Source: a virus. Taken from it: a stretch of DNA of 20,224 nucleotides. Under the pieces are notes generated by a model. The model was not told the origin of the DNA. It saw only the letters and a program-made list of their open reading frames with translations, and did not search any database. Both the position numbers and the translations under genes were made by a program. Position 1 is the stretch's first letter. Every line of letters starts with the position of its first letter. Positions 4,180 to 16,864 of the stretch are shown piece after piece. The stretch is taken from positions 1-20,224 of the IMG/VR virus record IMGVR_UViG_3300010397_000100. One strand, given 5' to 3'.

Positions 4180-6138
4180 TCAATTCATGAGACAGAGTGA
4201 AAGTGTATCCTTCGAATTATTGTCGAACACTTGCGCATTGGTTCCGTCACTGGCTTGGTTGCCAGATATGAAATGGACTCCCAGGGCCGGGATGGTGCGA
4301 TAAACGGCGACACCGCCAAGAACCATATTTGCTGTTGCACTCACATTATAAACGAGCGAGCGCGGCGACGAGTAAGCCGTCGTCGTATCTAGACCGATGC
4401 CAGAATTTGCGAACCCATTGGCGGCGTTGATCAGCGAGTTTTCTGTCGCATATGCCGCGTCAATCGCATCGTCTCCGAAAGAAATGAAGGTGATCTGATT
4501 GCCGGCACTCGCTCGCGCCTGGCGAATTGTTGTTACCGTATAGGTGTAGGTTGCGCCGCTATCGACCACATTGAGCGTGGTCAGCACCCTGTTGTAATAG
4601 TTTCGTACTCCGAGGAAACCGGCCGTCCCACCCGATGCCGACCCACCTAGAATATAGTCGATCGTTGACGAACCGTTCGACCTGACCGTACCGACCCACG
4701 TCCCTCGTGATGCAGCCGGACCGTTGGTGATCGACGAGGTGTTCAACAATATCCCCTGCACCATCGTCAGCGTGTAACCGCGTGTAGTATCATTGGTCCA
4801 TGCCGGGCCGCGCGTGGCGCGAATGGTCCCGGCATCGTTCCAGACAAAGATGTCATAGACCTTGGATGCTGCGACGGCTGCGGGTGATTTGGTGGTGTCA
4901 GACGTAGCTTGGCTCAATTCGGTGAAGACGGTCGGGACCATTGTCGTCCCATCGTAGATTGGGACGACCTGTCCAATAAATGGAGTGTACCAAACGCTGG
5001 TTGCGCCGGTAACCGTTGATGCCATCACCGGGACTGCGGACGCGATCGTCAGCCTGCCTTGCGGCGTGACAGTGAGCGAAATCCCGGCAATGTCGGTGCC
5101 TGATGTAAACCGCGGAATCTGTCCTGTGACAGGCGAACCGCTCGACGTAACCGTTCCACCGCCGGCGGGAGTCGACCAGGTCCCGTCACCCCGCCAGAAC
5201 GTCGAAGATGATGCCGACGTGCCGGAATTGAGATTGTTGACCGACAGATTCCCGGTAACTCCAGTGGAGAGCGGAAGCCCCGTGCAGCTCGTCAGCGTTC
5301 CCGATGTCGGCGTACCCAAGGCGGGAGTAATCAATGTCGGAGAAGTTTGCCTTACCGCAACGGAGCCAGTTCCGGTTGTACTGATAACCGGGAAGCCGGC
5401 TATCATGAAGGAATTGCCGGTGCCTGCTGTATCGAACGTTTTGTTGGTGAACGTATCAGTGGTTGCCTTACCGACGAGGGTATCGGCTGCCGCGGGAACA
5501 AGAACGGTGACGGTGCCCAGCGCGCCTGTCACCGGCTGAAGCGTCAAGAGGCCACTTGTCGCATTGCCGAACGTGACGGAGCCGAGCGTGCCGGATGCGC
5601 CGAGCGTCGGGGTCGCGCTGCCGCTCAGGTTACCCGCGTTCCAGATCGCGACCTGACCCGCAACGCCAGCGCTAATAGCTGTGGCGCTATTAATCGTCAG
5701 GTTTGCTGTGAGGGTTAGAGTGGATGAACCGGCGGTTATGATGTTGCCGTTGATCGAGGTCGCCGTTGCCGCGCCAAGAGTTGGCGTGACGAAGGTCGGC
5801 GACGTAGCGCGGGCGAAATTGCCGGTACCGGTCGTCCCGGTGAACGTGGCGACGCCGGTCGCAAATAGCGGCACGCCGCTTGACGCGCTGACATCGGCAC
5901 CAAATCCGCCGCGCGTGGCCGCGAGCGTGCTGCCCCACGAAAAGGTCAGCGTTTGGGCAGCAATAGAGCCCTGGATATTCGTATCGTTGGCGACGGCCTG
6001 GACGACATTTGTGTTGAGCTGAGAGGCGTCAACAGTCCCCGTCAAGGTGTGGTTGGCATCCCAATCCGGTCCGCCAACGATAGCCTCCGGGCTGGCCGCA
6101 GCGCCAGTGACGGTGGTGTGCGTGACAACCAGGGTCAT
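4180..6138 (-). CDS. Tail fibre, receptor-binding type, with collagen-like linker repeats
   Basis: A 652-residue Gly/Thr/Ser-rich fibre. Residues 1-50 form the likely virion-attachment end (MTLVVTHTTV...P-D-W-D-A-N-H-T-L-T-G). The shaft carries repeats well known in phage fibres: S-P-T-F-V-T-P-T-L-G-A at about 113-123 and its copy S-P-T-L-I-T-P-A-L-G-T-P at about 266-277, D-T-L-V-G-K-A-T-T-D-T-F-T-N-K-T at about 219-234, and S-T-F-W-R-G-D-G-T-W-S-T-P at about 312-324. The C-terminal third (about 370-652) is a more complex domain with many aromatic and Asn residues, probably the receptor-binding part. Its ATG overlaps the stop of the preceding 59-residue gene (ATGA). The shaft composition fits a trimeric beta fibre. 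Which sugar or protein it binds cannot be told from the sequence. Confidence 0.88.
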   Translation of the reverse strand: MTLVVTHTTVTGAAASPEAIVGGPDWDANHTLTGTVDASQLNTNVVQAVANDTNIQGSIAAQTLTFSWGSTLAATRGGFGADVSASSGVPLFATGVATFTGTTGTGNFARATSPTFVTPTLGAATATSINGNIITAGSSTLTLTANLTINSATAISAGVAGQVAIWNAGNLSGSATPTLGASGTLGSVTFGNATSGLLTLQPVTGALGTVTVLVPAAADTLVGKATTDTFTNKTFDTAGTGNSFMIAGFPVISTTGTGSVAVRQTSPTLITPALGTPTSGTLTSCTGLPLSTGVTGNLSVNNLNSGTSASSSTFWRGDGTWSTPAGGGTVTSSGSPVTGQIPRFTSGTDIAGISLTVTPQGRLTIASAVPVMASTVTGATSVWYTPFIGQVVPIYDGTTMVPTVFTELSQATSDTTKSPAAVAASKVYDIFVWNDAGTIRATRGPAWTNDTTRGYTLTMVQGILLNTSSITNGPAASRGTWVGTVRSNGSSTIDYILGGSASGGTAGFLGVRNYYNRVLTTLNVVDSGATYTYTVTTIRQARASAGNQITFISFGDDAIDAAYATENSLINAANGFANSGIGLDTTTAYSSPRSLVYNVSATANMVLGGVAVYRTIPALGVHFISGNQASDGTNAQVFDNNSKDTLSLCLMN

Positions 6139-6964: not shown

Positions 6965-7293
6965 AGGAGGCCAGCGCTCCAGCCGGCTTGAAGTGCCGGA
7001 CGATCAACCCGGAGATGCTTCCATTCCGGGTCTTGGAGCTTTCTCTGCACGATATCGTCAAACTCCTTGCTGAATGGCTTGATGTTCACGTTGCCCTTGG
7101 CATGTTCCTCGTCGAGCCAGCGGATGTAGATCACATTCGGGATGCGCGCGACGTGCCGCCCCCAGTCGCTGTGCTGCTCCTCGCGCCGCGCCTCACGATT
7201 CCAGTTCAGAATAGGCTCAACATCCTGAACATGCTCGATTGCGAGGTCCTGGCCGTTGGGGTCAAGGTGGACATTGACGGAGAGGTCCGACAT
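6961..7293 (-). CDS. Conserved phage protein, probable head/connector-associated
   Basis: A 110-residue, charged protein starting MSDLSVNVHLDPNGQDLAIE. Visible motifs are Q-D-V-E-P-I-L-N-W-N (about 23-32), S-D-W-G-R-H-V-A-R-I-P-N-V-I (about 42-55), and an E-F-D-D-I-V-Q-R-K-L-Q-D-P-E-W-K-H-L-R segment near the C-terminus. I recognise this as a conserved phage hypothetical that sits next to adaptor genes, but know of no assigned function. Its ATG shares one base with the previous stop (TGATG) and its own stop overlaps the adaptor start, so expression is coupled. A connector or completion role is inferred from neighbours only. Confidence 0.82.
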   Translation of the reverse strand: MSDLSVNVHLDPNGQDLAIEHVQDVEPILNWNREARREEQHSDWGRHVARIPNVIYIRWLDEEHAKGNVNIKPFSKEFDDIVQRKLQDPEWKHLRVDRPALQAGWSAGLL

Positions 7294-7604
7294 CAGGAGA
7301 GCTCCGTGACCCAGAGCGTGCCGGCGGTCGTGGTCACGAGACCGTTGGTTGCGGCCTTGAGGGCCGATATTTTCTGGCCTGGCGAAACCGTGATGACGGT
7401 CTCCCAGTTCGCAGGCAGGAACGGGTCTGCCGTGGTCGCTGTCGCCGTCCCTGTCGAGTCATAGATCCGGAAATTGCAGGCCGAATTGGCGACGAGGCGG
7501 ACCGCATAGGTCCCTGGCGCGAACGCATTCGTGACCGGGGTGGTGGCGTCGAAGGCTACCGTTTGAGTGACGCCGAGGCGCCCGATCGCTGCTTGAATCG
7601 TCAT
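7293..7604 (-). CDS. Small beta-rich virion protein
   Basis: A 103-residue protein starting MTIQAAIGRLGVTQTVAFDA. It has alternating strands and turns (Y-A-V-R-L-V-A-N-S-A-C-N-F-R-I-Y-D-S; D-P-F-L-P-A-N-W-E-T-V-I-T-V-S-P-G-Q-K-I) and ends L-W-V-T-E-L-S. The fold looks like a small beta sandwich. A strong ribosome site, AGGTGA with a proper spacer before ATG, lies partly inside the stop codon of the previous gene, so it probably has good independent initiation. It belongs to the run of small structural genes between capsid and adaptor. Head decoration or head-completion is a reasonable guess; no motif proves it. Confidence 0.8.
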   Translation of the reverse strand: MTIQAAIGRLGVTQTVAFDATTPVTNAFAPGTYAVRLVANSACNFRIYDSTGTATATTADPFLPANWETVITVSPGQKISALKAATNGLVTTTAGTLWVTELS

Positions 7605-7613
7605 GAGATCACC

Positions 7614-8015
7614 TCACGCCGGCATCAGAACGACACCAAACGTGCCGCCGATCGTGGTTCCGGTTGAGCCCGAAGGCGTGAACGAAATCAGGTCGCCCTC
7701 GTTCACGACATTCGCCGCAGTCGGAACCATCGTGTTGCTCGTACCCGCCGCGCTGTTCGAGGCAGTCAGGACGAGCGGCGAGCCGGTGACGGCCGTGCCA
7801 GCGCCAGGAGCCGAGCCGCCCGCGACCACCGGAATGATGGCCACCGCCACCGAGCAATCCGTGGTGAAGGCGCCGTGGGAGACACCGGTTACCAGCGTGA
7901 TCTTGGCCCGAAAGGGGGCGCGGATGACCGCGGCAAGCGGCGTGGAAGCGATCGAGTTCGTCGATGTGTGCAGGTATCGCTCCTGCAGCATCGGATGCGA
8001 GCCGGGATAGGCCAT
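7614..8015 (-). CDS. Small Ala/Thr/Gly-rich virion protein, candidate head decoration
   Basis: A 133-residue protein starting MAYPGSHPMLQERYLHTSTN, mostly beta with Val/Ala/Gly/Thr repeats (A-K-I-T-L-V-T-G-V-S-H-G-A-F; C-S-V-A-V-A-I-I-P-V-V-A-G-G-S-A) and a compact end (G-T-F-G-V-V-L-M-P-A). It has no signal peptide, and the hydrophobic strands are too interrupted to be membrane helices. ATG is preceded by AGGAG about eight bases upstream, a strong ribosome site. Together with the 209- and 103-residue neighbours it forms a block of small beta proteins directly after the capsid gene, a common place for capsid cement proteins. The function is inferred. Confidence 0.78.
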   Translation of the reverse strand: MAYPGSHPMLQERYLHTSTNSIASTPLAAVIRAPFRAKITLVTGVSHGAFTTDCSVAVAIIPVVAGGSAPGAGTAVTGSPLVLTASNSAAGTSNTMVPTAANVVNEGDLISFTPSGSTGTTIGGTFGVVLMPA

Positions 8016-8027
8016 GAATTTGGCTCC

Positions 8028-8657
8028 TTATGCCGTGTAGAGGTAGGAAATGATGCCAAGCGACGCGGTGAACGTCGTGGTCGGCGTGATGCTAGGGGTA
8101 GCCGTGGCGGCGACGCCGGCGACAGTTCCAGTGTTGGTGTCGACCCAAGTTGCGGCCTGGATGGTCCGCCACGTGTCGGTCGTGCTGTCTGGCATGACGC
8201 CAATCCAGTACTGGCCGGGCTTGGCCGTATAGGCCGAGACGAAAGCCCGCTGCTGGAAGGCCGAGGCGCCCGCCGTCACCGCGCCGCCGCCCGTCACAGA
8301 CGAGTTGGCGACCAGCGTTCCGGCCGAGTTGTAGAGCGAAACGATCGCCTTCGTCGTGCCGACCGTGGTTCCGTTCAGCACGCCAATGCCGAGCAGGACG
8401 CACGGATAAGGCACGAACACGTCGCTGAACCACATCGTGTTGGCGACGCCGGCGCGGCCGTTGGTGTCGATCGCGGTCAGGGCGCCGAGGTTTCCGGGCC
8501 CTACATTGTAGAGCCGGGTCTTGCCGCTCAGCGCCGCGTATTGGTCTGCCGTCTTCTGCGCACCGCGGGCTGTGGCGCCGCTCATGATCAGGATCTTGTC
8601 GGTAGCAAGCGCAATCGTGGATTCAACCGGGGTGTCCGGGGTGTCTGTCGTTCCCAT
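8028..8657 (-). CDS. Virion structural protein, possible head fibre or decoration
   Basis: A 209-residue protein starting MGTTDTPDTPVESTIALATD. After a helical N-terminus (about 15-45) it becomes a Thr/Val/Ala-rich beta domain (about 70-205) of jelly-roll appearance, with segments such as L-L-G-I-G-V-L-N-G-T-T-V-G, A-I-V-S-L-Y-N-S-A-G-T-L-V-A-N-S, K-P-G-Q-Y-W-I-G-V-M-P-D-S and F-T-A-S-L-G-I-I-S-Y-L-Y-T-A. That beta part resembles carbohydrate-binding or fibre-type domains, which can be displayed on capsids. AAAGGA with an 8-base spacer precedes ATG, and the gene follows a terminator-like hairpin after the capsid gene. The helix-plus-beta order suggests an anchor and a displayed domain; both are inferences. 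Confidence 0.78.
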   Translation of the reverse strand: MGTTDTPDTPVESTIALATDKILIMSGATARGAQKTADQYAALSGKTRLYNVGPGNLGALTAIDTNGRAGVANTMWFSDVFVPYPCVLLGIGVLNGTTVGTTKAIVSLYNSAGTLVANSSVTGGGAVTAGASAFQQRAFVSAYTAKPGQYWIGVMPDSTTDTWRTIQAATWVDTNTGTVAGVAATATPSITPTTTFTASLGIISYLYTA

Positions 8658-8711: not shown

Positions 8712-9656
8712 TTACGACGTGGTCAGATCATAGACCGCGCCGCTCGCTTTTTCGTTGCGAGAAACCAGCGCGTATTCGCTGAGCACCTGACGCCGATCCG
8801 AATCGCCAGTCTTGGCGAGCGGGATCGAGATCATATTGCGGCCGTTCAGGAAGGCCAGCGCCCACTTGTCCAGCTCAAGCACGAGGACATCGCGAGACCG
8901 GCTGAACCGGTTGGCGACGACCTTGAGCTTGCCGAAGTCGGATTCGTAGGCATCGACCGAAGCGGTGATCTTCTTGGTCGTCGCCTGCTCGATCGGCGAG
9001 GCGCGGCCGGTAAAGGTCGAGAAGATCTGCTTGTTGAAGGCGCCGGCCATGATGGTGTTCGGATCGCCGCCCTGGGTCCAGACTGCGGAAAGCACGGTCT
9101 TCAACTGGGCCTCCGTAAAGGCCCGCTGCGTCCCGTCCACCCGCGTCACCGTTCCGGACGTGGTCGGATCGGTGCCGGTCGTCGAGGTGTTGGTCTTGAT
9201 CCAGGACAGGACCGAGGCCGTGGTGCGGGCCGTGGTGGTATCGCCGGCAACCTGCGTCTGGTTGGTGCCGCAGACCACGACCTCCATGTCGCGCTTGAGC
9301 TCCAGGCCCTTCAGCATGGCCTGGTAGGCCAGTTCGTTCGACCGGCCGGCGTGCTGGACAGCCTGCTGGGTGCCGGACACGCGAGCGACCTTGTAGCTGA
9401 TCTGGGTGATATTCGCGAGACGGACGGTCACCGTGGTGGCGTTCGTGGTCGGGTCGTCACCTTCGAGCTGGGCATTCGCGGCCGCGGTCGCGAGGTCCTG
9501 GGTCTGCCACTCGTGCTTGGTTGCGGTGGCCTTTTCGCGTTCTATACCGGAAATGAACGGCGTTGCCGTCGGCGCGATCCGGTAGATCATGTCCGTGAGG
9601 TCTTCACGGTTGCCGATCGCCTGATAGGTGGCGAGGGTTGAGGCTGGGAGAGACAT
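8712..9656 (-). CDS. Major capsid protein (DUF5309 / SU10-type)
   Basis: A 314-residue protein starting MSLPASTLATYQAIGNREDL. The order matches the DUF5309/SU10 coat family: an N-terminal arm with N-R-E-D-L-T-D-M-I-Y-R-I-A-P-T-A-T-P-F, a W-Q-T-Q-D-L segment near residue 50, a long helix with E-L-A-Y-Q-A-M-L-K-G-L-E-L-K-R-D-M-E, and a C-terminal half with G-G-D-P-N-T-I-M-A-G-A-F-N-K-Q-I and V-V-A-N-R-F-S-R-S-R-D-V-L-V-L-E. The fold is expected to be HK97-like; there is no maturation protease gene in the window. It lies directly after the scaffold-like gene, has its own AGGA/AGAAAG region before ATG, and is followed by a strong hairpin, which fits high expression. Confidence 0.88.
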   Translation of the reverse strand: MSLPASTLATYQAIGNREDLTDMIYRIAPTATPFISGIEREKATATKHEWQTQDLATAAANAQLEGDDPTTNATTVTVRLANITQISYKVARVSGTQQAVQHAGRSNELAYQAMLKGLELKRDMEVVVCGTNQTQVAGDTTTARTTASVLSWIKTNTSTTGTDPTTSGTVTRVDGTQRAFTEAQLKTVLSAVWTQGGDPNTIMAGAFNKQIFSTFTGRASPIEQATTKKITASVDAYESDFGKLKVVANRFSRSRDVLVLELDKWALAFLNGRNMISIPLAKTGDSDRRQVLSEYALVSRNEKASGAVYDLTTS

Positions 9657-9668
9657 TGCTTTCTGTTC

Positions 9669-10769
9669 CTATGATGCCCGGCGAGAGGCCGCTTTCATTT
9701 GCGCTTCATAGAGCGCCCATGCGTCCTTCTCGGAACCGGTCTTGTTGAGACGATCTTCGAGGGCCTTGATGTTTTCGGCGTCCTGCTGACCTGCGGGACG
9801 CGCAACACCTGGCCGCTGGACCTGCGGAAGCTTGGCAAGCTTGGCCTGTATCTGGTCCTTGCTCTGCTGCAGCTCGGCGAGCTTGAGGCTGTCGTTGATC
9901 AAGACCTGAATGCGGTGATCATAGACGCCAAGCTTCTGCTTGCCGGCTGCGAGTGCGTTCAGTTCTTCATCCTTGAAGCCGATTTCGATCAATCGGGCTG
10001 CCGCGCGGCGCTCGAGTTCGGGGCCTTTCTTCGGATCGGAAAGTTCAGGGATCAGTTCACGCGCCTTGGCGTTTTCCTGACCGATGAAATCTTGCCAGTC
10101 CGTCTGCTCCTTCGTCGCCTTGCGCTGGTTGGACTGATCAAGCTCAGCCTTTACCGCCGCCATCTTGTGCTGGTGGACCTGCCAGGCGTTGAGATAGGCC
10201 TGGATTTGTCCCGCAGCGACCGGATCGGTGGTCGATAGCCGGAGAGCTTCATTCGCCAGCGTTTCGAGGTCCGCCATCGATTTGATGTCGGCGAATTGCC
10301 GGTTGTTCTGATCAGTCAACCCCTGCATGACTTCGGGGAGCTTGGCCTCGTACTTCTGCCTTGCCTCTTCCGCCTTCTGCTCCTTGGCCGTGAGGCCCTT
10401 GAGCTTTTCAGCGGCTTCATTTTGGGCTTGGCGAACTGCCGCACTGGCCTTGCTGTCCTGCGCGATCAGATATTCCTGAGTTGCGCGGGGTAGAGCTTCC
10501 CAATGTTCGGACTGTTCCTTTGCCCAAGACCTCGGAAGCGGGATTGGCGGCTGTTCAGCCGGGTCCTGTTCCTGCGTCTCGCCGGTAGCCTTTTCAGGGG
10601 CGGCGTTGCCCTCGACGGACAATTCGGGGTCTGCGGTCGCGTCATCCGCGCCTTCTGCAGGAGTTTCATTCAGGGCCGCGTCAAGCATGCGGCGGCCTTC
10701 TTCGATCGTTAGCTCTGACGTGTCGGCAATAGCCGGCGCTTCCTGAGAAGCGACAGGTTGGTCAGTCAT
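9669..10769 (-). CDS. Scaffolding-like protein
   Basis: A 366-residue, highly charged and helical protein starting MTDQPVASQEAPAIADTSEL. The first 80 residues are acidic and disordered in character (E/D/A/P-rich). A P-R-S-W-A-K-E-Q-S-E-H-W-E-A-L-P segment (about 79-93) is followed by long coiled-coil stretches (about 100-155 and 190-330). The C-terminus is basic (L-Y-E-A-Q-M-K-A-A-S-R-R-A-S), as expected for a part that touches the coat protein. Its place directly upstream of the capsid gene, the size and the composition are typical of phage scaffolds. An AAGGA site eight bases before ATG allows independent initiation. No protease motif was found, so the scaffold is probably not self-cleaving. 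Confidence 0.82.
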   Translation of the reverse strand: MTDQPVASQEAPAIADTSELTIEEGRRMLDAALNETPAEGADDATADPELSVEGNAAPEKATGETQEQDPAEQPPIPLPRSWAKEQSEHWEALPRATQEYLIAQDSKASAAVRQAQNEAAEKLKGLTAKEQKAEEARQKYEAKLPEVMQGLTDQNNRQFADIKSMADLETLANEALRLSTTDPVAAGQIQAYLNAWQVHQHKMAAVKAELDQSNQRKATKEQTDWQDFIGQENAKARELIPELSDPKKGPELERRAAARLIEIGFKDEELNALAAGKQKLGVYDHRIQVLINDSLKLAELQQSKDQIQAKLAKLPQVQRPGVARPAGQQDAENIKALEDRLNKTGSEKDAWALYEAQMKAASRRAS

Positions 10770-10785
10770 GGATTATCCTTGTGGT

Positions 10786-11001
10786 TTAGCCCACCTTAGC
10801 GGGCCATCTTCCTTCTTGAAGCAGGATATCGCGGGCTAGTTCCTTGCCTCGCATCATCCATGCATATTCAATTGCCTTGATCTCGCCGTTCTCGGGAGTC
10901 ACGGCTTTCACGGCTCCCTCGAGATATGTTTTGACCGATTTGGTCGCGATCACTTTGCCATCTTTGATGATTGCCATCGTATAAATGACAGGACCAGCCA
11001 T
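10786..11001 (-). CDS. Small conserved phage hypothetical
   Basis: A 71-residue protein starting MAGPVIYTMAIIKDGKVIAT, with two strands, a helix and a C-terminal helix pair (E-Y-A-W-M-M-R-G-K-E-L-A-R-D-I-L). The ATG shares one base with the preceding stop (TGATG); a GTG three bases earlier is an alternative. Residue spacing such as D-G-K-V-I-A-T-K-S-V looks like a small structured domain. I do not recognise the family. It lies between head-associated genes and the scaffold, so a minor assembly or regulatory function is possible. Confidence 0.7.
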   Translation of the reverse strand: MAGPVIYTMAIIKDGKVIATKSVKTYLEGAVKAVTPENGEIKAIEYAWMMRGKELARDILLQEGRWPAKVG

Positions 11002-11300
11002 CACAAAATGCCGAATTTTTTCTTGCGTTCGGCGGTTTCAGCGAGCTCGCGCAGCTGCGCCGCGGCCAGCTTGCCGTCGTTCAGCACGGCGCCGATATGG
11101 TCCTTGATCTTCCCGATGATCTGGACGGCCTGCCAGACCCGTTCCCGGCCGTCGCTGTCACGCAGGGGCGTCGCCTTCCATGCCGCGATGTATTCGGCCT
11201 CGAGCGTCGCCAGGGCGTCGTTGAACAGCGAATTGTCGAGCAGGGATTGCGCCTCAACAGCCCGGCTGTTTTCCCTGAGCAGCTTGTGTTCGTCGATCAC
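11001..11300 (-). CDS. Conserved phage head-module protein
   Basis: A 99-residue, all-helical protein that begins M-I-D-E-H-K-L-L-R-E. The core pattern (F-N-D-A-L-A-T-L-E-A-E-Y-I-A-A-W-K-A-T, then R-D-S-D-G-R-E-R-V-W-Q-A-V and I-I-G-K-I-K-D-H-I) is one I know from small proteins encoded near portal and scaffold genes of many phages, where it has no agreed function. A GTG start in a GTGA overlap with the glycosyltransferase-like gene indicates translational coupling. Basic residues at the end (E-R-K-K-K-F) could contact DNA or the capsid. Confidence 0.82.
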   Translation of the reverse strand: MIDEHKLLRENSRAVEAQSLLDNSLFNDALATLEAEYIAAWKATPLRDSDGRERVWQAVQIIGKIKDHIGAVLNDGKLAAAQLRELAETAERKKKFGIL

Positions 11301-12583
11301 GCGGCAAGCCTTCGCTGTCCGAGCATGGTTTCAAGCTCCCTGCGCACCGCTTCAATCGGCCACTCATCAACCGTGGTTTGTCTAAATATCCGGTGGCCAC
11401 GGTACCATTGCGTTCTGGCGCCCTTCATCCAGCGCCAGCACGGGGCCTTCCCGAGCATCAGCATCACGGGCTTGCCAAGCGCGCCGGCCATGTGGGCATT
11501 CGCCGAGTCCGTCGCCACGACCACGTCCATGGCGGCAATGGCGGCCGCGGTCGAGCGCCAGTCCGTGAAGGTTGAGCCCAGATCTGCAATGAATCCATCC
11601 AGCCCGAGGTTCGTGATTTCCTCCGGGCCCGGCTTGACCTGGAGGGAGTAGAATGCCGCTCCCGGCAAGTCGAACAATGGGCAAAAGGCGCGGAGGTCGG
11701 CCGATCGCAACGCATCATTCGCATAGCCGGGAGAGCCTTTCCATGAGAGGCCTACCTTCAACCGTCCCCTTTCAGGGAGATTGACAGGCGCACTCGTCAT
11801 GTAAGCCAAATCATTGACACCAGCATATTCGATCCCCATCAGCGCACATGCAGCCATCGGGGAGGTCACAAAATCTGCCTTGAACGGGCCGGCCTCGTTG
11901 ATCACGTCGTCGAAACAGTCGAACTGCTCGGCGATCAGAGGGGCTAGGCTTTCCGGGCCAGAAAACACCAGTTTTGCGCACTCATCCCGCAGGATCGGAG
12001 CGAACCGGATGAACTGGATCGTGTCTCCAAATCCCTGCTCATGGGTGAGAATGACGGATTTTCCCGTCAGATCCTCGCCGTTCCACCATTTTATCTTGCT
12101 CGTACTGATCGGCTTGCGCGGCTTGATGTGGTGCTTGACCTCAAATTCATAAAGTCCTTCCTTCAGCTTGCCCATCGCTAGTTTCGCGATGGCGATCGAC
12201 TGATGGATCTTCGGCTCGTTGATATCGGCCTCAAGGCTCAACTTGTACCAGTTCAAAGCCTCCTGGTATTCGTAGCGATCATGATGCGCCAGGCCGATAT
12301 GGTGCAGGACCAGCGAGCGGCGGTCCCGTGGTGCGATCTCAAGCGCGGCCCGGAACGTTCCGATGCTATCCAAACCGCTCCGCATCAGCGCGGAGGCGTA
12401 ATTGAATACCGCGATGAACTCGTTCGGCGCCACATTCGCGCAGCGCTTGGCAATGGCCAGTTGGGCCGGGCTGCGCGGCGTGGTTGACAGCAGCGTATAC
12501 TGATTGGCGAGGTATTCCGGGTTGTCCGGATCGTCGAGCAGATGCGCTGCCGTCTTTTTGTAGGCGTCGATGATCTCGGTCAC
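11297..12583 (-). CDS. TPR-repeat glycosyltransferase-like protein (GT9/GT41-type C-terminus)
   Basis: A 428-residue protein in two parts. Residues about 55-150 carry TPR-like helix pairs (F-N-Y-A-S-A-L, S-L-V-L-H-H-I-G-L-A-H-H, Y-Q-E-A-L-N-W-Y-K-L-S-L-E-A, M-G-K-L-K-E-G-L-Y-E-F-E). From about 165 it looks like a GT-B glycosyltransferase: W-N-G-E-D-L-T-G-K, E-Q-G-F-G-D-T-I-Q-F-I-R-F (182-194), V-G-L-S-W-K-G-S-P (277-285), A-M-D-V-V-V-A-T-D-S-A-N-A-H-M-A-G-A-L-G-K (351-371), C-W-R-W-M, and a final helix. These match bacterial TPR proteins with a heptosyltransferase-type C-terminal domain. The GTG start overlaps the previous stop (GTGA). It could glycosylate virion or host surface components; the acceptor is unknown. 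In this genome it is embedded in the head operon, which is not its usual setting. Confidence 0.82.
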   Translation of the reverse strand: MTEIIDAYKKTAAHLLDDPDNPEYLANQYTLLSTTPRSPAQLAIAKRCANVAPNEFIAVFNYASALMRSGLDSIGTFRAALEIAPRDRRSLVLHHIGLAHHDRYEYQEALNWYKLSLEADINEPKIHQSIAIAKLAMGKLKEGLYEFEVKHHIKPRKPISTSKIKWWNGEDLTGKSVILTHEQGFGDTIQFIRFAPILRDECAKLVFSGPESLAPLIAEQFDCFDDVINEAGPFKADFVTSPMAACALMGIEYAGVNDLAYMTSAPVNLPERGRLKVGLSWKGSPGYANDALRSADLRAFCPLFDLPGAAFYSLQVKPGPEEITNLGLDGFIADLGSTFTDWRSTAAAIAAMDVVVATDSANAHMAGALGKPVMLMLGKAPCWRWMKGARTQWYRGHRIFRQTTVDEWPIEAVRRELETMLGQRRLAA

Positions 12584-12993
12584 GGTTTGGGCGCGACCTC
12601 TGTGGGCTTCTCCGGCGCCGGAAACGGCTCGTGAACGAACGGGTGATGATCTGGCGCAATGGGGTCGACTCTCTTGACTGGAATCCCATCATCTTTGGGA
12701 TATCCCGCACTTTTCACATACTCAGATAGGGGAGGATCAGGCTCGCGCGGGGGAATGATGGACTTGGCCGTCGGTGGCGTCTGCGCGGCCAGCTTCTCCC
12801 GCTCCGCCGCAGCCTTCTCATCCTCGGCCTTCTTCATGTCGGCTTCGAGCTTCGCGTTAGTGAAGACCCAGCCGGCCTTTTCCATCTTGCGGATCATCAC
12901 GATGGCCTCGGTGATCGAGACCCGGGATTGCGTGGCCTCGGCGATCACGTGCGCCAGTTCCTCGTCGAGCTTCGCCTGTGCGATCTTATCCAT
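12580..12993 (-). CDS. Helical, proline-rich tail hypothetical after portal
   Basis: A 137-residue protein. The N-terminal 75 residues are helical and highly charged (E-E-L-A-H-V-I-A-E-A-T-Q-S-R-V-S-I-T; a K/E/A-rich coiled coil around 45-70), and the second half is proline-rich and probably disordered (I-I-P-P-R-E-P-D-P-P-L-S; F-P-A-P-E-K-P-T-E-V-A-P-K-P). The ATG overlaps the end of the portal gene by eight bases, and GGAGAAA a few bases upstream is a good ribosome site. I do not recognise a family. Its position suggests a portal- or head-associated assembly protein, but a small regulatory role cannot be excluded. Confidence 0.72.
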   Translation of the reverse strand: MDKIAQAKLDEELAHVIAEATQSRVSITEAIVMIRKMEKAGWVFTNAKLEADMKKAEDEKAAAEREKLAAQTPPTAKSIIPPREPDPPLSEYVKSAGYPKDDGIPVKRVDPIAPDHHPFVHEPFPAPEKPTEVAPKP

Positions 12994-14713
12994 CTGTTTT
13001 CTCCGGTTTTGCCCTCATCTGCTCCAGCTTGGCCGCGTGTGATGCGTCGTTGTGTTCCATTTTCTGGTCGTGTGCTGCGGCTGTCGCGGCCATGCCGACG
13101 ATGGTCTCTGCCACCTTGGCGCGGTGCTGCTGATGGTCTGCAGCCGCCTTATGCTCCATTTCCAGTGCTTTCAGATGCAATTCCAGTACCTTGAGTTTGG
13201 CGTCGAACTCCGCCTTGACCTGAGCAAGCGCGGCCGCATCCTTGGCCTTCTGCTGGTCGAGCTGGGCTTTCATCGCGAGCTCGGCTTGGTCGCTCTTGGC
13301 CTGCTCCTGAATCGCCAGCACCTTCGGATCTGGTGTCGGTGCCGGGGGCGGATGCATCGGCTGGCCGGTCTTCGGATCCTTGGCCTGCGGGTCGTTAAAG
13401 AACCGATCCGCGTTCTTGTGGCCCATAATCTTGCAGATTTCGGAGGCCAGATTGAAGATGTTGTTGTCATCGACGAGGTTGGTCTTCCCCGCGGTGAGGA
13501 TCTTCTCCTGAAGGCCGGCGATCGCCATGTTCTGGGCAAACTGCTGCGCCTTGCCACCGGTTCCAAGCCCGACGCTGATGGTCATATCGTCCCGGGTCGT
13601 CCACTGCCGCGGATCGACGCTCACCCATTTGTTCCGCAAACGAACGGTCTCGGCCTGCTGGCCATGCTTCCTGATTGTGCCGTGCAGCAGCGAGAAGATG
13701 TCCCGCACGCCCTCGGACATGATGCGCGCGATCAGCTTCATTCGCATCTGCGAGGCAGAGAACACCTGCGCAACCGCGGTCGCCGTCTGGTTCTGCAGGG
13801 CGTTGGCGTCGATGCCCTGCCCCTGCTTGGTCACGCCGGTACGGGTTTCGAGCTCGGCGTCGAGGTACTGCAGCATCGGATAGATCGACGAGGTGATGTC
13901 GGGAACCACCTGCCAGTTCAATCCGCCCGCCGTCTTTGTGCGAACCACGCCACCAGGGCGGCTAACCAGAAGATCATCGAGAGTATTCGGTCCAGCATTC
14001 TGTTCTGCAACTTCAACCCGGGGGTTGTTGTGCAAATACAGATTGTCCAGCGCGCCCCGCTTCAGCGCCGTCTTCTCACGCTGCAGTGGCATCACGAGAT
14101 CGGCCATCGACCGGCCGAAGAAACGATGCGTCATCGGAACCGGCGTGGTCGCCGCGATCGGGATGGCGTCAATGGGTTCGATCGCCTCCTTTCCGTCCTT
14201 GCGCAGGATCTCGCCCTGATCCCCAGCCGTGGTCACCATGTAGAGGCAGGGACGGCCGTTGCCCTCGTAATCCATGCGGATGTAATGCTCAGTGATCTTG
14301 ACCGGGCGCGCCGCAGCGTTCGTGCTCGCTCCTCCTGGAACTGCCAAATGCTCGGAAACCGTGTCGCGGGCGATCGTTTCGATTTCGGTCAGGCCGGTGT
14401 ATTCGGTCAGGCTCTCGATCTGGGCCTTGTCGAATCCCTCTGCGGCCAGCTGCGCCGGCGTCTTCGTCACGACCTCGTGGAAGGCGTAATTGCAGGTCTT
14501 GATGTCCCGCGCGGCGCGCTCGATGCCGAATTCCTCGGGCGGAATGCCGAGAACCCGGGCCTGAGCCATCTTCCTGGTGGTGACGATCGTAACGTCATGC
14601 GTGGCCGGCTTGGGCGGAGCCTGCATTGGCGCAGGATTGGCCATCTGCTGGCCTAGGCCTTGATTTGGCAGAGGATTGAGCTGGCCCTGCGGCGGCGGAT
14701 AGGGTGCGTTCAA
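12986..14713 (-). CDS. Portal protein, main (C-terminal) part of a split portal
   Basis: A 575-residue protein starting at TTG 14713, which overlaps the TGA of the preceding frame (TTGA). After a Pro/Gln-rich leader (about 1-35), motifs of the P22/p19-type portal family appear: V-P-P-E-E-F-like I-P-P-E-E-F-G-I, I-T-E-H-Y-I-R-M-D-Y-E-G-N-G-R-P, P-M-T-H-R-F-F-G-R-S-M-A-D-L, K-R-G-A-L-D-N-L-Y-L-H-N-N-P-R, E-T-R-T-G-V-T-K-Q-G-Q-G-I-D-A and K-W-V-S-V-D-P-R-Q-W. The C-terminus (about 440-575) is a long charged coiled coil with A/Q/K repeats, probably the barrel. The N-terminal portion of a normal portal is missing here and is found in the upstream frame, so the two chains together make the full portal. 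Confidence 0.85.
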   Translation of the reverse strand: MNAPYPPPQGQLNPLPNQGLGQQMANPAPMQAPPKPATHDVTIVTTRKMAQARVLGIPPEEFGIERAARDIKTCNYAFHEVVTKTPAQLAAEGFDKAQIESLTEYTGLTEIETIARDTVSEHLAVPGGASTNAAARPVKITEHYIRMDYEGNGRPCLYMVTTAGDQGEILRKDGKEAIEPIDAIPIAATTPVPMTHRFFGRSMADLVMPLQREKTALKRGALDNLYLHNNPRVEVAEQNAGPNTLDDLLVSRPGGVVRTKTAGGLNWQVVPDITSSIYPMLQYLDAELETRTGVTKQGQGIDANALQNQTATAVAQVFSASQMRMKLIARIMSEGVRDIFSLLHGTIRKHGQQAETVRLRNKWVSVDPRQWTTRDDMTISVGLGTGGKAQQFAQNMAIAGLQEKILTAGKTNLVDDNNIFNLASEICKIMGHKNADRFFNDPQAKDPKTGQPMHPPPAPTPDPKVLAIQEQAKSDQAELAMKAQLDQQKAKDAAALAQVKAEFDAKLKVLELHLKALEMEHKAAADHQQHRAKVAETIVGMAATAAAHDQKMEHNDASHAAKLEQMRAKPEKTDG

Positions 14714-15303
14714 GACGCGCTCTCGCTCTCTTCAACCAGCTCGGAGACTTCCTCAGCCTCGTTATTGACCGTGTGCTCGACGATCTTCATGGTTCCTTCC
14801 GAGGCCTCAACCGCTTGAACGAGCAACGCAAACTGGTCTTCAGTCAGGTCGTAATACGTCTCGCGGCTCTCTTGCTCGCGTTCTTCCCAGAAGACCTTGA
14901 CCAGGCCTGTCTTGCTCAGCAGCGCATCCTTGATAAAGCCGTACAGGATCATGAAGCCCGGATTGCGCTGCATGAACACGTGGTTCACGTAATCGGTTTC
15001 CTGTTGCGCCGCGTCTTCGTCCTCGGGACCGACCGGATCGAACCGCACAACCTCGTCAGACCCGGCAAAGATGTCCATTAGCGATGGCATCAGGCCTTCA
15101 ATGGTGTCCTGCACATCCATCGAAACAGCGCGGGAGCGCCCGTCCTGCGCCGGCATGTCCTTGGCCATGTGGCCCTGGTAATAGTCCATCGCATCCGCGC
15201 GCTCGCCCATCAGGTTGGCGGCCTGCGTCGCAGCCATAGCGCTCGATTTCTCAGCGTTGACCATGGCGCGCAGGTCGGAGATGGACATTTTAGCCAAGCT
15301 CAT
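14710..15303 (-). CDS. Portal protein, N-terminal part of a split portal
   Basis: A 197-residue protein starting MSLAKMSISDLRAMVNAEKS. It has the portal N-terminal pattern: helix, then E-R-A-D-A-M-D-Y-Y-Q-G-H-M-A, G-R-S-R-A-V-S-M-D-V-Q-D-T-I-E-G-L-M-P-S-L-M-D-I-F, and Q-E-T-D-Y-V-N-H-V-F-M-Q-R-N-P-G-F-M-I-L-Y-G-F-I-K-D-A-L-L-S-K-T-G. The C-terminal 35 residues are very acidic (E-E-V-S-E-L-V-E-E-S-E-S-A-S). The start at 15303 is supported by GGAGG three bases before ATG; this spacer is short. It ends in a TGA that overlaps the TTG start of the second portal frame, one register back. No slippery heptamer is evident at the junction, so coupled initiation is more likely than programmed frameshifting. 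An indel in the sequence remains possible. Confidence 0.82.
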   Translation of the reverse strand: MSLAKMSISDLRAMVNAEKSSAMAATQAANLMGERADAMDYYQGHMAKDMPAQDGRSRAVSMDVQDTIEGLMPSLMDIFAGSDEVVRFDPVGPEDEDAAQQETDYVNHVFMQRNPGFMILYGFIKDALLSKTGLVKVFWEEREQESRETYYDLTEDQFALLVQAVEASEGTMKIVEHTVNNEAEEVSELVEESESAS

Positions 15304-15457
15304 AGTCCTCCGGGGCAGCCCCATCCTTGCGCAGTTTCTCAACCAGCCGCAGCACGCGGAGGAAGCCTGCTCGCTCCTCAAACCAGCCTTCACTTCGGAG
15401 ATGTTCGCGAATCCTCAATTCTACCTCTGCAAGGATTTTCGCGTCATTCTTAGCCAC
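15290..15457 (-). CDS. Small conserved helical protein upstream of portal
   Basis: A 55-residue protein read from GTG at 15457, followed by A-K-N-D-A-K-I-L-A-E-V-E. It is all helical with amphipathic spacing (R-I-R-E-H-L-R-S-E-G-W-F-E-E-R-A-G-F-L-R-V-L, then L-V-E-K-L-R-K-D-G) and ends E-D-Y-E-L-G before TAA. An in-frame TGA lies four codons upstream, so GTG is the only likely start; GAGAG about ten bases before it is a weak ribosome site. The gene overlaps the portal start by 14 bases. Residue choice looks coding and unlike the adjacent frames. Function unknown; it could be a terminase or portal partner. The 120 bases between it and the terminase gene show no gene and no clear promoter. Confidence 0.72.
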   Translation of the reverse strand: MAKNDAKILAEVELRIREHLRSEGWFEERAGFLRVLRLVEKLRKDGAAPEDYELG

Positions 15458-15577: not shown

Positions 15578-16864
15578 TCATCGCCATCCCGCATTGCCGT
15601 AGTTCAGCGACCGGTTGAAATTCGCCTCGTTCGCCGGCGGCGTATAGCAGATCGCCATCAGACCAAGTCCATCTGCCGCGTGTGAAGACCAGTCGTGATC
15701 CGGACCGAGACCGACGTTTCGTATGTCATCTTTACGTTCATGGTAGAAGCCGAGCGCGTCCCTTCCAGCTTCTGTAGTGTCCTCATTGAACCAAAGTTGA
15801 GGGCCCAGCCGGCGAAGCGCTTCAATACGCTGCATTGCGGCGCCGCGGCCTTGGTTTGGTACGGTTGGGTCAACCCTGAAACCTGCATCGCGGAAGTGAT
15901 CCTCGTACCTTTTCCCAGTGACATCGTTTTCTTTAACCCCGTCATGAGGAAAGCGCAGAATGACGTTCTCATAGCCCCTCGAGCGCAGCCAGTTGACATG
16001 GAACGCTAGGACCTGGCCTTGGGACTCGTAGTAGTCGAGGACACGGATTTCTTGTCCGACGAACTGGACGATCCAGATCGTGAAGGCGTCTGCTGTAGCC
16101 CCCGAACCCCCGATATCGATGAAGGCCCGAAGTGGGAGGAGCGGATCGGCAGCCACGCGACCGATTCGCCCACCTTGACGAGCTTGAGCCAGCAGCCCCG
16201 CGAAGTAAGCTCCCTCGAAGGCTTTGGCATATCCGCCCTCATACGTGTGGTCATACCGATCGGGGTAGAGCTGCAGCTCGAGCAGCCGTTCCGCCTCGAG
16301 CGTCTTGGTCCACCACGGGTTATCCCGCCAGTTCGCCTGGACGACGACCGAACCATCGGGCTTGCGGCCTCTCAGGAAATCATCGACCGCGTCAGACTTC
16401 CGGCGCGGGTTCCACGAGAACCACAGCTCAGATCCCTCATCACGGATCGTCGGCCGCAGCAGCGACAGGCTTCGCGCTGACATGGTCTGCGCTTCGTCCG
16501 TCCAAGCGATCCGAAACCCCTCCAAGGACTTAATCGACTCCGCAGTGTGGTCCTGCATGCCCGTGAACATGATCAGGCCGTCACCAGGTGTCGCTATCCG
16601 ATCGTGGAAGACCTTGAACCCCTGCCCGACCCCGAGCGCACTGATCTTGTCCTCGATCAGCCGTTTAGAGCTCTGGGACAAGGTGCGCTGCACCTCACGG
16701 ATGCAGACCGCTCTTGTTCCCTTGACCGCTTGGCATTCCTCGACGACCATTTCGCCGAAAAAATGCGATTTTCCGGAGCCGCGACCACCGTGGGCTCCCT
16801 TGTATCGAGCCGGCACCAATAGCGGCTGGAAGATCCTAGCTGTCGGTATGCGGAGCGTCGACAA
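15578..16864 (-). CDS. terL: Terminase large subunit (PBSX/Terminase_3 type)
   Basis: A 428-residue packaging motor with ATPase and nuclease parts. Visible motifs: Walker A G-G-R-G-S-G-K-S (26-33), Walker B with the catalytic pair D123-E124 in I-A-W-T-D-E-A-Q, a coupling motif S-W-N-P-R (150-154), and RNase-H-like nuclease acidic residues D250 (F-I-D-I-G-G-S-G), D308 (F-P-H-D-G) and D398 (H-A-A-D-G-L). All expected active-site positions seem intact. The start is TTG at 16864, overlapping the small-subunit gene by 29 bases; no ATG lies near, and GAG precedes it at a fair distance. The protein pumps DNA through the portal and cuts concatemers. No frameshift is visible. Confidence 0.95.
   Translation of the reverse strand: MSTLRIPTARIFQPLLVPARYKGAHGGRGSGKSHFFGEMVVEECQAVKGTRAVCIREVQRTLSQSSKRLIEDKISALGVGQGFKVFHDRIATPGDGLIMFTGMQDHTAESIKSLEGFRIAWTDEAQTMSARSLSLLRPTIRDEGSELWFSWNPRRKSDAVDDFLRGRKPDGSVVVQANWRDNPWWTKTLEAERLLELQLYPDRYDHTYEGGYAKAFEGAYFAGLLAQARQGGRIGRVAADPLLPLRAFIDIGGSGATADAFTIWIVQFVGQEIRVLDYYESQGQVLAFHVNWLRSRGYENVILRFPHDGVKENDVTGKRYEDHFRDAGFRVDPTVPNQGRGAAMQRIEALRRLGPQLWFNEDTTEAGRDALGFYHERKDDIRNVGLGPDHDWSSHAADGLGLMAICYTPPANEANFNRSLNYGNAGWR

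Follow-up and report, generated by a model that had tools for sequence, protein, structure and literature searches.

The head operon of the soil-bacterium phage studied here contains a gene for a protein with a tetratricopeptide repeat (TPR) half and a glycosyltransferase (GT) half. Its best explanation, to which we give a probability of about 0.55, is a soluble cytoplasmic protein glycosyltransferase of the FlmG type that decorates a virion protein. This reading suggests a phage that coats its own virion with sugar, using an enzyme from the broad family of a bacterial enzyme that glycosylates flagella. It is preferred because the gene is linked to an FkbM methyltransferase, because such genes were placed independently in head operons of unrelated phages, and because of the FlmG-type relationship of the protein. 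The first-pass annotation had proposed sugar modification of the capsid or a decoration protein; glycosylation of the virion is now the best reading, but the co-expression with head genes on which that proposal was built is no evidence of the acceptor.

In the window, a virus record of 20,224 bases, the head genes are encoded by the minus strand, to which all window coordinates below refer, in the order split SU10-type portal, GT, 99-residue protein, scaffold and SU10-type capsid. The head module is of the SU10 type, with a portal matching PF23899 in two open reading frames (ORFs) and a major capsid protein matching PF17236 (SU10_MCP; 8712..9656, E 7e-93). The N-terminal portal piece (14710..15393) covers SU10_portal positions 2-167 and the C-terminal piece (12986..14713) positions 167-590, while the scaffold lies at 9669..10769 (phrog_3927, E 3e-17) and the terminase large subunit at 15578..16864 (PF04466). 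These assignments bear out the head-operon setting that had been read from the letters alone. The GT gene itself (11297..12583; 428 residues, GTG start) shows the expected GTGA stop/start overlaps on both sides, at 12580..12583 with the gene of a charged 137-residue protein of no assigned function (12580..12993) and at 11297..11300 with that of a conserved 99-residue head-operon protein (11001..11300, phrog_8161), the right-side marker of the junction. Downstream of the capsid gene, three small proteins with 24% Ser and Thr (7293..8657; ORFs at 8028-8657, 7614-8015 and 7293-7604) matched no Pfam or PHROG family.

The portal (12986-15393) is encoded by two ORFs of 227 and 575 residues with a stop/start overlap. 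This split is kept in the relatives checked and in the active phage ppBeUSDA76-2; Pelagibacter phage HTVC106P and a Microcystis phage have one main portal ORF. In 35 of 84 loci the two pieces are more than 500 bases apart, with a maximum of 5.6 kb, and at locus L006 a small ORF of ~70 codons is inserted between them (about 5640-5840). A programmed frameshift or sequencing error as the origin of the split was ruled out by the stop/start overlaps in relatives and by the inserts between the halves.

TPR-like repeats followed by GT-B motifs had been noticed in the gene; the repeats were confirmed by phmmer, and both parts by an AlphaFold2 model built with 86 homologues (pLDDT 96, pTM 0.92), which superseded a poor model obtained with 12 close relatives only (pLDDT 48). 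The model places nine TPR-type helices before two Rossmann-like halves. The predicted TPR-type half (residues 2-150, 12134..12580; about four helix pairs) presumably binds the acceptor; consensus TPR proteins match residues 51-155 (E 5e-17), and the matches to Pfam TPR models are sub-threshold only. The GT-B domain (residues 167-428, 11300..12085) is GT9/heptosyltransferase-like according to Pfam, relatives, the model and an alignment with WaaC. PF01075 matches residues 344-375 at E 0.0011, with 18.7 bits against a cut-off of 22 bits; two close relatives passed this cut-off in a six-frame search, and 76 of the 86 homologues match at E 0.001. Across these homologues, E182, Q183, G184, G186, D187, R193, H364, W393 and Y394 are invariant, the first six within the motif EQGFGD..QF.R (E182-R193, 12005..12040) and the last two at 11402..11407. 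Judging from the G-x-G-D motif, D187 may be the counterpart of the catalytic Asp13 of WaaC. The putative donor-pocket motif D359-SANAHMAGA (11480..11509) aligns with WaaC 245-278, a stretch containing D261, the heptose-binding residue of WaaC. The dN/dS of the gene against the two closest relatives is 0.033 (L003) and 0.028 (L002); the large portal piece gives 0.05 and the scaffold 0.33-0.37. Purifying selection on the GT is strong, with a ratio near that of the portal and far below that of the scaffold. With its motifs and predicted fold intact, the enzyme looks active.

FlmG of Caulobacter crescentus is a flagellin glycosyltransferase of 596 residues with TPR and GT-B halves, of which the TPR half alone binds flagellin, whereas the GT half alone fails to do so (PMC7591256). 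The phage protein likewise joins an N-terminal TPR half to a C-terminal GT-B half, and by analogy it may also glycosylate protein in the cytoplasm; it differs in its length of 428 residues and in the setting of its gene, which is a head operon and not a flagellin cluster. TPR-GT genes were found in flagellin clusters in nine of 20 alphaproteobacterial flbT regions examined, at least five of them adjoining flbT, and from place, length and architecture we infer that these neighbours are FlmG. A flbT-adjacent TPR-GT of 596 residues is 24% identical to the window protein over 397 residues across both halves (E 2e-15), and a GT-domain profile matched the flagellin-cluster TPR-GTs at E 3e-19 to 2e-39 for ten in one clade. 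H364 is kept in the phage GT but missing from the compared flagellin-cluster protein. In the tree, phage TPR-GTs form one clade (SH-aLRT 99) and fall outside the flagellin-cluster clade; since the two clades are separate, the phage enzyme should be said to work like FlmG, not to be FlmG, and an FlmG-like use of its acceptor is suggested by analogy.

Bacterial homologues at about 27-34% identity are widespread. Those named "tetratricopeptide repeat-containing glycosyltransferase family protein" in Azospirillum, Bradyrhizobium and cyanobacteria match over nearly the full length and share the motifs of the phage GT; they are mostly uncharacterised, and the phage clade is distinct from them and well supported on the tree. 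A structural check against GT9 and GT41 had been proposed. On the GT9 side, the donor motif aligns with WaaC, but WaaC and WaaF have no TPR half and use the LPS core as acceptor, and the window protein stays under the PF01075 cut-off. O-GlcNAc transferases and SPINDLY of GT41 share the TPR plus GT-B architecture, and the top PDB fold matches of the model are TPR protein-O-glycosyltransferases; the TM is low, however (~0.3), so the domain arrangement of the phage GT differs from that of OGT. The GT-domain profile search matched no OGT or SPY chain, and the phage TPR half is shorter. A parallel in function is proposed with GTs encoded by mycobacteriophages, whose hosts differ: Che8 gp110, Corndog gp38 and a Myrna enzyme glycosylate capsid and tail-tube proteins, as cited in PMC12363180. 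Given these enzymes, the earlier premise of a location outside the head operon for phage GTs should not serve as a rule.

Searching for the same gene between portal and scaffold elsewhere, as had been suggested, was productive. The gene is present in 14 IMG/VR contigs at 62-98% identity, between the portal and 99-residue protein genes in every clade contig covering both flanks; because so many contigs keep it in the same place at this identity, its presence in the window is not due to chance. Within the clade the GT remains conserved (71-77% in more distant members) while the terminase falls to 29%. Among 99 junctions scored, 14 carry the GT and 85 do not; the gap in the latter is at most 130 bases in 51, 131-1000 bases in 10 and more than 1 kb in 24. 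Once loci already recruited by the GT search are excluded, the gene is found at 3 of 88 junctions, and it accompanies about seven of the 80 best portal matches, re-found loci included. Of 392 genomes searched from the family to which G007 belongs (the genome with Bradyrhizobium oropedii locus L102), 22 have the wider head module. The Bradyrhizobium phage ppBeUSDA76-2, a podophage that is produced spontaneously (PMC10127595), has the module as well (capsid 62%, portal 73%), with the GT absent. HTVC106P has the order portal, small gene, scaffold and capsid, again with the GT absent. Since relatives share the head module without the GT and HTVC106P shows the GT-free order, the GT is cargo added to a gene order older than itself; heads assemble without it, and it is therefore not an assembly gene. 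A 43.5-kb relative (G002) has integrase, repressor-like, Erf and RecE-like genes, which indicates a temperate phage group. Six genomes of homologue-bearing bacteria yielded no prophage with this capsid, and a scan of genome contigs with clade-specific peptides gave no matches.

Other contents of the junction were also observed. In Bradyrhizobium-family prophages it is filled by 2-6 kb of ORFs that share a repeated N-terminus of the form LVPVDHQPDF...LVPVDHDPF and vary in their C-termini. At L199 (6684-8146) the ORF ends in a WHH nuclease (PF14414) and an SMI1/KNR4 immunity gene comes next, and ORFs with similar N-termini occur at L202, L243, L251, L257, L264, L270, L271, L278 and L284. ORFs of the L199 type look like polymorphic antibacterial toxin cargo in a phage head operon. 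At L191, L204, L202 and L271, the interval from the portal to the 99-residue protein gene contains duplicated 3' fragments of the large portal gene, as if the cargo arrays had grown by recombination through portal ends.

An FkbM methyltransferase gene (PF05050, E 4e-19) lies immediately upstream of the GT in L002, L209, L225 and L247, that is, at four of 14 GT-positive loci and at none of the 85 GT-negative loci (Fisher p 2.7e-4, a value that ignores shared ancestry). It is found in both GT subclades, with 38% identity between them. The GTs of L003 and L002 are both 98% identical to the window GT, and FkbM is present in L002 only. At L219 the junction is occupied by another putative GT (phrog_1574, DAD motif), for which the PHROG glycosyltransferase match is weak, together with a 115-residue protein that is 45% identical to a 110-residue protein upstream of FkbM-GT in L002. 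A literature search on phage FkbM/GT head cassettes found no relevant report. Tentatively, the junction may serve temperate Bradyrhizobium-type podophages as a cargo site for the exchange of glycan-modifying cassettes, so that otherwise near-identical virions would get different sugar coats. The cassettes exchanged would perhaps be the TPR-GT, FkbM with the TPR-GT, and a GT-A-like enzyme paired with a small surface protein.

Beyond this lineage, TPR-GTs (29-33%) occur in unrelated HK97-type phages with a different portal family, in the orders TerL-240aa-GT-portal-protease (L033), portal-228aa-GT-protease (L032) and portal-227aa-GT-protease (L031). Despite the differing gene order, the GT is preceded in all three by homologous proteins of 227-240 residues (37-49%) with 21-25% Ser/Thr. 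This Ser/Thr-rich protein has no assigned family (L031:6845-7528, L032:7109-7795, L033:7197-7919) and is a candidate head glycoprotein. In L040 the GT follows the capsid gene and is itself followed by a second GT. In a separate viral clade, the GT overlaps RCC1-repeat genes, often by 4 bases, or follows tail-fibre genes. Such an overlap of an RCC1-repeat gene with the downstream GT gene was seen in L035, L058, L061 and L077, possibly a tail or adhesin protein with a dedicated glycosyltransferase. In most viral contigs examined the TPR-GT family therefore sits with virion-protein genes; the exceptions are L034, L037, L038 and L067, where the GT neighbours are on the opposite strand. The marine virus AG-345-E08 (L014) carries, by reading, a TPR-GT in an island with 2OG-Fe(II) oxygenase-like, nucleotide-sugar and RCC1-repeat genes.

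If the enzyme decorates the virion, the GT would be made late in infection along with the head proteins. Its TPR half would bind a virion protein, and this would most likely be an exposed one such as a capsid, decoration or other surface protein. The GT-B half would then move a host-made, nucleotide-activated sugar onto Ser/Thr before or during assembly, and in some relatives the neighbouring FkbM methyltransferase probably methylates the glycan. We infer the activity, the acceptor, the donor, the Ser/Thr linkage and the benefit. By composition, the three Ser/Thr-rich proteins encoded downstream of the capsid gene are candidate decoration proteins and acceptors, and the capsid protein is likewise a candidate. 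No virion or structural gene was found that is present in GT-positive and absent from GT-negative relatives, so co-occurrence gave no acceptor. The 137-residue neighbour was ruled out as acceptor by several GT-positive relatives that have no such gene.

The cargo status of the gene bears on two further explanations. That the protein is a non-catalytic GT derivative, with the TPR half chaperoning the assembly of portal or capsid, is unlikely: TPR proteins are common chaperones and the gene lies between portal and scaffold, but the catalytic-type residues are invariant under strong purifying selection, the gene is linked to FkbM, and close relatives assemble without it. It is also quite improbable that the GT merely hitch-hikes at an insertion-tolerant junction with no functional link to the head. 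Although unrelated cargo occupies the junction in 24 relatives (more than 1 kb, including the toxin-immunity pair of L199) and small ORFs occur there in others, the long-term fixation at one site across a clade of 62-98% identity argues against it, as do the TPR-GTs that were placed independently in head operons elsewhere.

The main contender, still rather doubtful, was also offered by the first-pass annotation as a change of the host surface: the GT would modify a host target such as LPS, capsule or flagellin, so that superinfection is blocked or the receptor altered, and would be in the late operon for timing only. The operon position also fits such a gene. GT9 enzymes classically act on the LPS core, host surface conversion is common among temperate phages, the phage group has an integrase and a repressor-like gene, the GT is dispensable cargo, and by analogy with FlmG the flagellin-cluster homologues would act on host flagellin. 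However, a coupled late head-operon gene is expected to be little expressed in a quiescent lysogen, a scan of 20 ORFs of G002 recognised no membrane or export partner genes, and TPR-GTs lie among virion genes in unrelated phages. Glycosylation of phage DNA at a modified base is very improbable. Some phage glycosyltransferases do modify DNA and relatives encode DNA methyltransferases, yet no hydroxymethylase or base-hypermodification gene was found among the same 20 ORFs, TPR halves typically bind proteins, and neither the place nor the timing of a late head operon suits a modification tied to replication.

Protein glycosylation of phage particles is known from few systems. As glycosylation of virions is already described for mycobacteriophages (cited in PMC12363180), the phenomenon itself is familiar, and what is new here is the variant. 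Under the preferred reading of virion glycosylation, the variant is a head-operon enzyme whose architecture has a worked-out substrate logic, in which the TPR half picks the protein and the GT half adds the sugar. GT-positive and GT-negative relatives with the same head make virion glycosylation in proteobacterial phages directly testable, and the pattern suggests that one spot in the head operon is used for swapping particle-modifying cargo.
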